From Pseudovirgaria hyperparasitica (taxonomy: Eukaryota; Ascomycota; Dothideomycetes; Acrospermales; Acrospermaceae): a DNA stretch of 64,000 bases. Positions within the stretch are counted from its first letter, which is position 1; each line of letters begins with the position of its first letter. Position numbers and translations under genes: made by a program. Shown piece by piece: positions 18,750 to 64,000 of this stretch. The stretch covers positions 1,687,074 through 1,751,073 of the forward strand of contig NW_022985550.1 of the NCBI RefSeq assembly GCF_010093815.1, in the 5' to 3' direction. The notes under the pieces were generated by a model. The model was not told the origin of the DNA, made no database searches, and saw only the letters and a program-made list of their open reading frames with translations.

Positions 18750-19427
18750 ATGTCGGACGACGAGGAGCGTGTGACCAAGCCATTTATGTTCGTTACTGGT
18801 AAGCAGCCCTGGTCTTGAATTGCGGACTGAGCACTAATCGTACCATAGCCGGTATGTTCACGATGCAGGCCTACTTTCTCGACAATACTCTACCACAGTC
18901 CTTATGTTCACCACTACGAACGACTTGATCGATATATCACCAGTGCGCACGCGTATACAAACTAATCCTCCCCCTCGCATAGGTTTCGACGCCCGTTTTC
19001 CGAACCAAAATCAGACCAAGCATTGCTGGCAGAACTACGTTGACTACTTCAAATGCATCAACGCTAAGGGAGAAGATTTCAAGCCTTGCCGCCAGGTACA
19101 TATACCCTTAGTCGTGTGAGACGAAGATTGGTGGACTTCCAGGAGTGTGCAACAACAAAAGTCCGGTCTGCAGTCGACCACGACAGGCGTCGCAGTCGCT
19201 ACTCCGTGATATGATACGACTCGGCGCGAGATGGATAGATGCATGACACATTGGCTAACAACAAGTACAGTTCTTCCATGCCTATCGCTCCTTATGTCCT
19301 CGCTCTTGGCATGAAAGATGGGATGAGCAGCGTGGTGCGTACATCGACTGTTATATGGACTTACCGTCACGACTATACTAATAGACACGCAGAAAATGGC
19401 ACTTTCCCAGCCCGGCTGGACGAGTAA
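18750..19427 (+). CDS. COX12: Cytochrome c oxidase subunit VIb (Cox12), with a predicted 3-nt microexon
   Basis: Predicted exons 18750-18798, 18849-18851, 18983-19095, 19271-19334 and 19393-19427 give 87 residues. The twin cysteine signature is C32-x9-C42 and C53-x10-C64, which forms the two disulfides of this intermembrane-space subunit after Mia40 import. [18 protein letters not shown] and RWDEQRENGTFP are family hallmarks. Exon 2 is only CCG: the intron before it has a GTAAGC donor, CTAAT branch and ATAG acceptor, and the intron after it has GTATGT, CTAAT and ATAG. Including it gives [12 protein letters not shown], the family consensus; skipping both introns as one removes only the alanine. 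The protein complex role (dimer interface of complex IV) is known. The microexon is inference from splice signals. Confidence 0.88.
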
Positions 19428-19638: not shown

Positions 19639-22600
19639 CTACTGATCAACTCTATCCCATTGCAACCTCGAATAGTTGCCCAGTAGAGTCCTAAGCAACC
19701 CGTTTTTCTCTTCGTTTTCATCCCCGGTTCTCGCCAGTGCCATTGCTTTCACGGCCCACAACTGACAAGCTTCGTCATCGCCCGCACAATATGCATCTAC
19801 GCCCCGATTGAATGCTGTGGTCGCCAGCCACTCTAGCTCAACTTTAGGATATACGTTTCCATGCGCCTTCAACCGCTCCGCCGTACGGGTGGCCTGATCG
19901 AGACACTGCAGACTAACCTTTTCGTCAATATTGACTGCAATCTGAAAGAGGCAACGAATCCAGCGTGCGAGTTTCGTTATATCCTCTGTTGAGGGGTCCG
20001 TCGTGGATGATGATGCTTTCCAGGCTGCATTGATGACCTTCTGTAGAGATTTGAGGACGTGCGATTGATGCGTTCTGCCAGCTTCAGAGTGCGAGAGTGC
20101 GAGGTCTGTTACGAGAGTAGAATGTATGAGGAGAATAAGGTCGGCTAAGGTGGCGAGGTGCGATGAGACGTCAAATGTGAAAGCAGAGTCGAGCAGTTCG
20201 TCAATGGAGGACCAGTCGGCGAGCTTTAGAAGGGCTTCAAGTTCATAAGTGAGCACCTGAGTGTGTTTCGCAACAAGGTCGTCGCGGGCTGTCGGTGCAA
20301 GCTCGGACACCGCGGACAGTTGTGTATAGACCAACTCACGGAATATCTTTCCATGTTTGCGAACAGAGAGATAGTTGTTCAGGGACTGTTCTGAATTGTC
20401 ATGACTGCGTGCCACGGTAAGGTATGCTGTGGTAGCAAGGTAATGACAGAAAATTTTGCGGAGTAGCAGCCCCCTTTCTGATTTCTCGGCGCACTTTGCT
20501 TCAAGGAACTCGACAAATTGAACGCATACTAAGAGCAGTTGACCTAGGTGTTCGGGGCTCATTCTGGCGCAATATTTCAAAGCCAGGTTGTAGCTGGACT
20601 TAGAGAACCACTCCAACTCAGTCACTGTGAAGTCGCTTGCGGAGGTCTTGTTCGGTTTTTTGCTTGCTTCCTTTGCCGCCTTCAATGCACCCTCAAATAG
20701 ACTGAGCAGAGCCTTTACCGCTTGCTTATCGAGGTCCTCTTCAGTCTCAAACTGTTTTATAAGCAAGCGAATTGCACATCTTAATAGGATAGCCAGATGT
20801 ACACCTTCTGGAACGTTATAGTTATACCGCTCGACGACTTTCTGGAGAGCCATGGTCGCTTGGCGTTTATCTCCAGCTTTTTGAGCCTCAAGTATACAAG
20901 CATAGAGAATGGTGGCGTCCTTGTTCGACGCCTTGCTAACTGCCTCTAAACATTCGATAGCTTGCTCTTCTTGATTGCTGCGTAATGCGACTTTGTACAT
21001 TAAATATTGCGTGATCCCGGCAAGCTTCCCGGTCTCTGTCATTGTAAAAAAAGTACGACGAGCATCTGCATAGTCTTGAATGGCGAGGGAGCAGAGGATC
21101 ATCTTTCGAGAAATCTTTGCTTTATTCATCTCTCCAGCATTCTCAAAAAGATTATGCAAGGACATATTGCACCAAGTCCGCGAAGACTCATATCGCTGCT
21201 GACTATACGATGTCTCTATCTTTCTCCACAGTAAAGTCTGAGCTGCGTGTGTTGCTATCGCACTGAATGGCTGCTGTAGATTGTTGCGGATGAGATCGAG
21301 AAATACCGAGAATGATGCAAAATGTTCATCGCTGTCAGGCGTTTGGGAGTCAACCCATATTCTTGTAACGCATGCCTTCTCCAGATATTTGTGTCGATCC
21401 GGTTCACAAAGCCTTTGCAGAATCAACTCGTCCAGGACGGTACAAGCGCTTTTCGTATCATCCTTACTCTTCAAGTAGTGTATGTGATGCATAAGAGTTT
21501 TGAAGTTGGTGTCAGTTATCACGAGACTTGGAACCATACGTAAGAGTGCTGCGACAATGTAAGCTGCCCAGACCGGCTATTACGCTGAAATGAACGGACT
21601 GCTGGAGTAGGTGGCAGTGTCAGGGCTTCTTTCCGTTGACATCATCTCAAGTTTCAAGAGCAAGACTACCATTTTGTCCGTGAAGTCCTAGACGTATGGT
21701 CGGTAAGATCATTTGACAGGAGCAGAGACTGAACGTACGGACTCCATCAGACGTAACAAATCCCAAGCTCTGCGACGGGAATCATTCTCATTCAATGTGT
21801 GGAGAGCCTTGACTACGCTCTAAGTTAGCATTCTTAGTCACATATTCCATAGACATCGTACCAAGACTTTGTAGGATACTTAGTCTGAGCTCTACAGAAT
21901 CGGCGCTCAGCTGGTCCACATCTTGCGCAGAGAGCACGTCGTGCGATCTTTCCAGCCACCTCACGGCTAAGTCATATTGTTTCCTACACAAACAGTCTTT
22001 CCCTATCTCCAATAGCAAGTCGGCGAAGCTCTCGGCTGCACCAGGGTCGAGACTCCCGACTGGATGCCCCCCCTTGGAAAACATACTTTCCGCAAGATCA
22101 AGACGTGACTGCTTCCACGCCTAGTCGATTGTTCAGCCTGTCTCACTTATGCCCAATATCAACTTACAAGTGCTATCCTAATAGCATAATACTCGACTCT
22201 CAATTTCGCGGGCACATTTCCTTGCTCACACATCGGGTCGTCTGCCTTCTCTGAAGCATTGACATAGTCCGCCGCTCTTTCCAAAGCTTTTAAGGAGAGC
22301 TCCAATTCCCCTGCTTCGATACAGAACTTGGATGCCTTCAGTGCCACCTTCAATACCCTGACCGCATTATTGCCCATTGAACGCGATTTCGTAGTCTGCT
22401 GCCCATAGTCAAGCAGAAGAAAGGCAAATACACGGAGGAGACACAGTGTTCGCTGTTTGTCCTTTTCTGTGCTCATGCCTTCACGGTGCATGCGAGTGGA
22501 GAGGTTCCATAGCTCAGTCCCCATGGAGTCCAGATCCTGCTGTTGCGTCGCCGAAACCACTGACACGTTCAGAGGGACTGATGTGACGTGTTTGTGCAAG

Positions 22601-61304: not shown

Positions 61305-64000
61305 TCATGGGTCCACACCTTCAACTTTCCGCAAAAATTCCTTCACTCTGCTAACATCAATACCATCAGAAGTCTCGCTCTCCACAGCCGCGACCAAGCC
61401 GGATAATGATTCCTCAATACGTGTCTCGTCTGTATTCGTACATATGGAAATAATTTTCCGGTACTGCGCCTCGAGTTCGCCGTTCCTTTCTTTGAGAGAT
61501 TTGCATCGCTCTTGAAGATTGGAATTGTTACTGATATAGGCCGATAGACGAGCCTTCAGCACATGAACCGGAGGTAGCGAATAAAGGAATGCCTGGTGTG
61601 GCCCAGACAATGTGTCAATATCCAGGTTTCCATTAATCGATGAAGTGAATTCAGGGGCGGTCGATGACGGAAGGATCGTCGTGAGAGATAAAACACTGTC
61701 TGGTAAATGGTCTGCCCTTACGGCGACTCCGGTATCCAAATCTGCGTCCCCAATAGAGCAGGCCTTGAGTCTCGTCAATGCTGCGGGCTCTTTGTTGGCA
61801 AGTGCGCGCCTTTGCGACTCGGCCCATCGACGGAGGTTCTGTATACGTTGCAGACGATCAGACCTTACCTGATTACGCTGGCGGAGGACATCAAGTTTTT
61901 GCGATTCAAGTTTCTGGTGTGTAGAAAGCTCCTTAATCATACTGTTTGTTTTATCGATCTGATCCTGCTTTATTCTTGTTTCTGCGCTATATTGCGTTTC
62001 CGCTTGAGAGAGGAACGAATTAAACACTGCTCGATCATTAGCGTCTCAAAGTCTTGTTATCTGCAACTGGTTAAGCACTCACGGGGCATGATCTCTCGGC
62101 TTGTTTCTTCACTTCGGCTCAACGGCGCTTTGCCCTTGGGTGGTGATCCAGCTTGGCTTTGTGAGTATCCAGACTTGTCCACGTCGACACCGACTCCAAA
62201 TTCAATAGGCCGCATCCCTTTGTAATTAGGAATAGTGACATCAGCCTGTACTTCGAGAAGTTGACGAATTATACTGCGATTACCAATCCTTGCAGCCAGA
62301 TTCAAAGCAGTATTTCCGCTCTTGTCTCGGGCATTTACCATTTCACCCATGAAACGCATGAGGCCTATTGGCTTATTACTAGAGCCAACGTCGAAGGAAG
62401 CTTGTTGCCCATTTGCTGAATTGCTGCGTACTAGAAATTCCAATAGGGCTTCCAAGTAGTATTTACTCGAAGAGGCCCTTCCTTTAATTGCACACGTAAC
62501 TGCTATGTGATGCAGAATGGTGCGGCCCTGGTGGTCCCTGAACTCGATTAGAGGAGATAAGATCTCCAGCGTTTCAGGAAAGCAACTATGATCCAAGCTG
62601 TTATTGACCGACACAGCGCTCATTAATGGAGTCTGTCCCGCAGCATTGCCACGGAACATATTGGCACCTTTCGAAACAAGCAGACGCATCAGTGAGACTC
62701 GAGCCAGAGTAGCAGCCCAGTGCATTGCGGTGTTCGCGGCATTATCGATTGGCAAATCGAGTTCAGCACCGGACAGGTGACGAAGCGCTGGATGGTCGGC
62801 AAAGTCGGTCCTAGATGTGTCTGCAAAGAGATCTGTTAAGTATGCCTGCTTCTCGTCTGTCATCTTATTTTTGGGAGGAGGTAGTGGTGGCAAAGCAGTG
62901 GGTGCTTCGCCCTCCACAGGCGGTACTTGTGGCAAAGACATCTGCCCTGTGAACGATTCATTCGGTTCTGTTGGCGAACCATCCCGCATTGCAACATCAC
63001 GTCCACCGTTAGACTGGGCGAATGAATCGCCATGGTCCGATCGCATTCGTTTTCGTGGTGGCTCCTGTGTTTCCATTCCGTCTGCTCCGTAAAGTGCGCT
63101 GGATGTGCCATAAGTAGAATCACCTTGGCCTGTGGCACCGAAGCTTTTTTCGGAGTGTATACTCTGCATACTCTGTTGACTACTGCGAAACGATTCCTGA
63201 CTGGCCATCGGAGGCTGCGACGGTCGTCCCCCTATTGTGCCTGGCCGACGCTGTGAGCTGCCTGGCCGAGGCGTAGGTGAGTTCATTCGTGCGACCTTGT
63301 TCATTGCAGCTAGAGCATTCGATGCCGTGGACGATATGTTTGAGAAGAATGTCCCATCAGAATTTTGGGCTGGCGCGCGTGCTTCCATCGAGGTAGTGTA
63401 GAAACGTTTACGATTCGCCGCCATGGCCTGTTCTTTGGTAGGCGTGTCCATACCTTGGCCGGGAGCGCCGCTCCCGTCTGCACTCACATCATACTCCAGT
63501 AATGGGCGTAATAGCTCTTCGACACCATACTGACGGCAGAATTCTCTCCCCCGCTTGTAATCAATCCACGTCCCTTGGTATTTTCCATAACCGCCCTGGA
63601 CCTTTTCATGGTTTCCGGTCAATATCTCTTTCTCCAAAACTTTGGTTCGCTTTCCCTTGTCTACACCAGCGACTTTGAGGATTTGCGTTGCATTCAGCCA
63701 AGAGTCCGATCGCCTCCTCATAACAGCAATACCGTTGACTTCGAGCTCGTATACTGATACGCCCGAGTAAACAGCCTATTTGCGTCGAAAGTTAGCAAAG
63801 GCTCTAGAATGCGACATCTGCATCGTGTTATGGCGTACTGTGTATATTTGAGCGGGACCACCGTGCTGCGCAGGATTGAAGCCATTCGCTTCCGAGAAGG
63901 AGCGAAATGATCCTGATGGCGCCATCATACCATTGCTCGTGTTCGGATTATTGAACATCAGGTGCTGGGGTGTCTGCTGGCCATTGGAAGTAAAGGACGA
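61305..64000 (-). CDS. MBP1: APSES-domain cell-cycle transcription factor, Mbp1-like (5' end beyond window)
   Basis: Exons: from the window edge to 63839, 63775-62083 and 62026-61305; the N-terminus may continue past 64000. The APSES/KilA-N DNA-binding domain reads AVYSGVSVYELEVNGIAVMRRRSDSWLNATQILKVAGVDKGKRTKVLEKEI and then GTWIDYKRGREFCRQYGVEELLRPLLEY. Its first bases lie right after the intron. Ankyrin repeats follow (NAANTAMHWAATLARVSLMRLLVSKGAN, NAAGQTPLMSAVSVNN, GNTALNLAARIGNRSIIRQLL), then a C-terminal coiled coil (QAETQYSAETRIKQDQ, QKLDVLRQRNQVRSDRLQRIQ). The Mbp1-Swi6 (MBF) complex drives G1/S genes through ACGCGT boxes. An in-frame ATG at 63958 (MFNNPNTS) could be the start, but the frame stays open to the edge. 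Confidence 0.92.

Follow-up and report, generated by a model that had tools for sequence, protein, structure and literature searches.

Introduction

In Drosophila, microexon 8 of homothorax is 3 bp long and is conserved among insects, and exons of 3 bp have also been reported for NCAM and troponin T (PMC7392893). The small conserved microexons of plants include the 1-nt exons of APC11 and VPS55 (PMC8831610). In the filamentous ascomycete Fusarium, the CYP621A gene contains a 1-nt exon which is reported as wrong in all but one of the listed gene-model transcripts (PMC12940212), and the abstract of a Trichoderma study states that functional microexons were previously undescribed in filamentous fungi (PMC11121469).

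The present analysis concerns the COX12 gene of Pseudovirgaria hyperparasitica, situated in a window of 64,000 nucleotides (the whole stretch of DNA that was analysed, to which all positions refer). In our reading, the triplet CCG at 18849-18851 is a genuine, constitutive 3-nt exon of this gene; its flanking introns are probably removed stepwise and the arrangement is apparently common to the leotiomyceta. We estimate the probability of this reading at about 94%. Among the matches listed in a search of literature titles and the beginnings of abstracts, no published report of a COX12/COX6B microexon was found.

Results

Structure of the COX12 gene and its product

The gene (COX6B family, PF02297) consists of five exons on the plus strand across 18750-19427, and their translation gives an intact protein of 87 residues. 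Its parts are as follows.

18750 to 18798, plus strand: COX12 exon 1, from the ATG; the 3' end reads GTT ACT G, phase 1
18799 to 18848, plus strand: intron 1, 50 nt, phase 1; donor GTAAGC, branch motif CTAAT (18834), acceptor ATAG
18849 to 18851, plus strand: COX12 microexon CCG, 3 nt; finishes the Ala17 codon GCC and opens the Gly18 codon GGT
18852 to 18982, plus strand: intron 2, 131 nt, phase 1; donor GTATGT, branch motif CTAAT (18962), acceptor ATAG
18983 to 19095, plus strand: COX12 exon 3, GFDARFPN...KPCRQ; first bases GTTTCGAC at 18983
19096 to 19270, plus strand: intron 3, 175 nt, phase 0
19271 to 19334, plus strand: COX12 exon 4, from the translation
19335 to 19392, plus strand: intron 4, 58 nt, phase 1
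19393 to 19427, plus strand: COX12 exon 5, from the translation; stop codon TAA

The joined protein scored 89.5 bits against PF02297, the curated cut-off being 26. Two cysteine pairs, C32-C42 and C53-C64, were located by eye in the translation, and their CX9C and CX10C spacings are those of the twin cysteine motif of COX12/COX6B. With a query whose C-terminus was wrong, the nearest solved relative was a Cox12 (8c8q_J, E 5.9e-37, residues 4-80 matched); the two best solved relatives shown, 8c8q and 6giq, read T-V-G-F-D at the site of the microexon. A query that was likewise wrong at the C-terminus gave three matches at E <= 0.001 in the 35-Mb genome (59 contigs), all of them at this locus.

Two other reading frames of the window were noted. 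The one adjoining COX12 (19639-21537, minus strand) matched a SPO22/ZIP4-like meiosis protein with 105.7 bits, and an ORF of 554 residues at 62057-63721 (minus strand) contains ankyrin repeats and matches KilA-N weakly (25.3 bits against a cut-off of 23.8).

Splice signals, reading frame and chance occurrence

The preliminary description of this locus had placed a 3-nt CCG exon between two complete introns, and its coordinates proved exact to the base in both the sequence and the translation. The bounds of the microexon are complete, ATAG standing directly before CCG and GTATGT directly after it, and each flanking intron has a branch motif; these two are the only CTRAY motifs in 18780-19010. 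Donors 1, 2 and 3 match the U1 consensus CAGGTAAGT at 7 of 9 positions, and donor 4 at 5 of 9. Across the two phase-1 junctions the codons are formed as G+CC (Ala) and G+GT (Gly). Retention of intron 1, of intron 2 or of both leads to stop codons.

Alternatively, the whole of 18799-18982 could be a single intron of 184 nt, in which the inner acceptor, the CCG and the inner donor would be fortuitous or relict, and the mature protein would read VTGFD. As had been stated earlier for this locus, such a reading deletes just the alanine: the frame is kept when CCG is skipped, Ala17 alone is lost and 86 residues remain. The length would not be unusual either, since intron 3 of the same gene has 175 nt. 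The interior of the 184-nt span was compared with dinucleotide-preserving shuffles, in which the first 6 and the last 20 bases were fixed (n = 200,000). The pattern CTAAY, YAG, 3 nt and GTRNGY was found in 120 of the 200,000 shuffles, and the same signals together with the correct Ala and Gly codons in just 4, which speaks against the single intron.

If introns of about 40 nt or more are allowed, the frame is preserved by only two internal segments bounded by AG and GT, namely CCG and a 57-nt piece at 18849-18905. The latter was rejected as an exon; it is in frame, but its donor (GTTCAC) is poor, it would add 18 residues more than CCG does and the conserved Gly would be replaced. Nothing resembling this piece was noticed in the relatives listed. 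In 264 kb of DNA (the 64-kb window and 200 kb of the 35-Mb genome), scanned on both strands, the CTAAY-YAG-N3-GTRNGY pattern occurred once, at the COX12 microexon, and it was absent from one Markov-shuffled copy. Short-intron-like matches numbered 112 in the 264 kb versus 79 in the shuffled copy; these counts are noisy and no weight was put on them.

The microexon site in the proteins of relatives

Two protein searches, from which the best 120 of 512 and the best 120 of 523 matches were taken, yielded 138 distinct proteins. The query of the first search had a wrong C-terminus, and that of the second was without the residue encoded by the microexon. Sixteen of the proteins, all without organism names, came solely from the jgi, merc or lgn sources, which we take to be environmental assemblies, many of them made from transcripts; the remaining 122 were genome-annotated. 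The best named matches among those listed were Dothideomycetes and other filamentous ascomycetes.

In all 16 environment/transcript-only proteins listed, VT and G are separated by exactly one residue (scored by script in 15 and by eye in P0134), which agrees with the earlier proposal that the CCG triplet restores a conserved residue of Cox12. The residue is Ala in 15 of them and Val in one (P0086). Judged by eye, 12 of the 16 run unbroken across the sites of introns 3 and 4, like spliced mRNA, and one of these (P0001) has an internal repeat. In P0013, P0037 and P0067 either a later intron is retained or the protein stops early; P0116 has a late frame shift. The source contig of P0013 is 42 kb long, and this protein could be of genomic origin, in a species where the introns flanking the microexon have been lost; the source genes of unspliced environmental ORFs in general could have lost both introns.

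Among the matches listed, a single residue was scored in 22 of the 122 genome-annotated proteins and no residue in 35; odd inserts were present in 53, and 12 were unclassed, of which 11 were without the VT motif and one without DARFP. The expectation that annotation pipelines would miss the microexon is in line with the clean single residue being scored in just 22 of these 122 models. Read by eye, the unclassed P0126 has VTGFDLRFP and thus no residue at the site; the residue is present in the unclassed P0025, a basidiomycete (Rhizoctonia). P0038, a COX12 of Pezizomycotina type, is assigned to a tree, Corymbia citriodora, with a source contig of 1057 bases, and looks like fungal contamination.

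For the best-listed matches, the difference between 16/16 environment/transcript-only and 22/122 annotated proteins gives p = 6.6e-11 in Fisher's test, and a stricter set without P0013, P0037 and P0067 and with clean annotations only (13/13 vs 22/57) gives p = 6e-5; both values overstate the independence of the proteins, which are related. When 21 chosen sequences were aligned, T16, G18 and D20 proved invariant, and A17 was conserved at 90% or more.

Fungi outside Pezizomycotina

A control search (best 120 of 316 matches) added 91 proteins. P0221 and P0222, which belong to Pezizomycotina and are both garbled at the microexon site, were dropped, leaving 89 proteins sorted as outside Pezizomycotina by their source names, 9 of which are without an organism name and 1 labelled as a bacterium. 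Among these matches exactly one residue was present in 87 of the 89 and zero in none, P0190 and P0213 being unreadable. Since the single residue is so general outside Pezizomycotina, it probably predates both introns, and its absence from a protein would be exceptional.

Thus, while 35 of the 122 annotated relatives listed read as a single intron would predict, and in some of them the absence could be genuine, the residue is absent in 0 of the 16 environment/transcript-only and in 0 of the 87 readable proteins outside Pezizomycotina among the matches listed. The single-intron reading was rejected on these proteins of relatives, and we regard it as highly improbable.

Two further observations were made in this sample. 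P0139, a COX6B labelled Paucibacter (a bacterium), comes from a contig of 374 bases, is identical over its full length to a Rhizoctonia-type query and looks like fungal contamination. Six basidiomycete models (P0149, P0156, P0173, P0174, P0200 and P0226) are garbled directly after GFD/PFD, which suggests that basidiomycetes have an intron at another position, shortly downstream.

Pattern scans for relatives' DNA in genome_contigs and viral_contigs gave 38 and 29 pattern matches, respectively, of which none was confirmed; both introns in the relatives are deduced from protein translations only.

Inserts resembling intron read-through, and informative pairs

The 53 odd inserts of the annotated proteins start with Ala-Gly in 12 cases, with Gly in 28 and with another residue in 13. 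All 12 Ala-Gly-start inserts continue with T, K or M (background 0.20, p = 5e-9), and 18 of the 28 Gly-start inserts continue with K, T, M or R (p = 5e-7); these p-values, too, overstate the independence of the proteins. A donor of the form GTANG, when it is read after a phase-1 G, gives Gly and then T, K, M or R, so these two signatures are what a pair of donors spaced by one codon would be expected to leave. The Ala-Gly inserts read like intron sequence left unspliced at the second donor, and the Gly inserts like sequence left unspliced at the first. Taken alone, the Ala-Gly-start inserts would equally arise in species with just the second intron.

According to taxonomy look-ups, which covered 10 names in all, the Ala-Gly group includes Leotiomycetes, Lecanoromycetes, Sordariomycetes, Eurotiomycetes and Dothideomycetes, and the Gly group Leotiomycetes, Lecanoromycetes and Eurotiomycetes. 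A clean single residue was found in three Pezizomycetes, namely Choiromyces (P0020), confirmed by look-up, and Tuber (P0015) and Ascobolus (P0028), which we place there by name; in these one or both introns could be absent.

For 13 of the 16 environment/transcript-only proteins, the nearest annotated neighbour downstream of the site has the residue absent or garbled, as judged by eye; in this ranking several top scores were tied, and P0001, P0013, P0037 and P0116 had low scores from their broken tails. The neighbours of P0013, P0056 and P0134 have a single residue (Ala, Gly and Ala, respectively). Some pairs are informative in themselves. The Hortaea werneckii protein P0011 is without the Ala, which is present in the MERC protein P0116 with a nearly identical 5' leader. 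In Verticillium longisporum P0060 is without the residue, and P0100 has Ala-Gly followed by intron-like sequence. Aspergillus flavus P0136 has 21 extra residues after Ala-Gly, and P0067, 97% alike downstream, has none. The Trichoderma atroviride model P0057 reads VT-G-GTD versus VT-A-GTD in the jgi protein P0056, to which it is 98.5% alike; the model has perhaps displaced the first donor by three bases.

Since annotated models of both kinds are present, a genuine but alternatively spliced microexon should also be considered, in which case Cox12 proteins of both 87 and 86 residues would be made by a regulated one-residue switch. The length of the microexon is divisible by three, donor 1 can be joined to acceptor 2 in frame, and a regulated 20-nt microexon has been published in Trichoderma (PMC11121469). 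However, the skipped form was seen in 0 of the 16 environment/transcript-only proteins listed, even though one of the queries was itself without the residue, and RNA structure joining the splice sites was not found beyond that of shuffles (z = +1.35; 185 of 200 shuffles folded equally well or better). We consider such a switch very unlikely.

Discussion

These results argue for a constitutive microexon, and CCG is probably included in the mRNA of P. hyperparasitica. On either side of CCG there would be a spliceosomal intron of the ordinary kind, recognised by intron definition, as is thought to be the case for short fungal introns in general. Since each intron has its own complete signals and would be paired across the intron, an exon of 3 nt does not need exon definition; the earlier view that exon definition, being impossible here, limits the size of such an exon does not hold as a great obstacle in a fungus. 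Introns 1 and 2 are likely removed stepwise rather than at once, because U1, when bound to the second donor, would extend over the entire microexon as far as the first acceptor, leaving hardly any room for both sites to be occupied. The microexon would then supply the Ala, in place of which one listed relative has Val; fungi outside the group, too, have exactly one residue at this position.

The successive removal of two neighbouring introns would give much the same picture as a stwintron, of the kind described in filamentous fungi, or a recursive splice site, with no true exon in either case. In a stwintron an internal intron interrupts a splice signal of the external one, whereas here both introns are complete, with donor, branch motif and acceptor each, and are separated by the three coding bases CCG; the stwintron was rejected on this ground. 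A recursive site leaves no exon in the mRNA, and the proteins of the relatives retain the residue. Introns 1 and 2 show, moreover, no similarity beyond that of shuffles (local score 16 against a shuffled mean of 16.0); an origin by intron duplication was likewise rejected. We hold a stwintron or recursive site to be extremely improbable.

To return to the constitutive microexon, the same arrangement appears, from the protein translations, to extend across the leotiomyceta and to be skipped or misread in most of the listed public gene models. It is likely that the constitutive 3-nt exon predates the split of the leotiomyceta classes, that both introns have been kept since, and that most filamentous ascomycete models are wrong at this point. 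The microexon is thus probably old, constitutive and widely mis-annotated. If this is true, it is among the smallest frame-neutral exons common to a whole fungal radiation, and the protein to which it contributes is a core subunit of cytochrome c oxidase. The way in which a fungal spliceosome copes with a pair of introns separated by three bases could easily be tested on it. It also points to a systematic error among the public sequences of Cox12, one that a microexon-aware pipeline could correct.

The preliminary description had regarded 3 nt as the lower limit of known exons; this is contradicted by the published 1-nt exons of plants (PMC8831610) and Fusarium (PMC12940212). The Fusarium CYP621A exon (PMC12940212) resembles that of COX12 in being tiny, in occurring in a filamentous ascomycete within a conserved motif and in being mis-modelled. 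It differs in that it has 1 nt, belongs to a P450 gene and costs the frame if missed, while the COX12 exon has 3 nt, is frame-neutral, belongs to a core respiratory gene and apparently extends over five classes. The 3-bp exon of homothorax is also in frame and has two flanking introns; it is, however, an animal exon and in flies an alternative short form of a 48-bp exon, whereas the fungal COX12 exon is apparently constitutive (PMC7392893). The plant microexons share with COX12 the deep conservation, the tiny size and the absence from reference annotations, and differ in the kingdom and in the genes concerned (PMC8831610). The 20-nt microexon of Xlr2 in Trichoderma virens is likewise a microexon of a filamentous ascomycete; unlike that of COX12, it is longer, is switched by glucose and decides whether a DNA-binding domain is made (PMC11121469). 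Tiny exons are therefore already known, with 3 nt in animals and 1 nt in plants and Fusarium, and the COX12 case is notable for its breadth and for the frequency of its mis-annotation.
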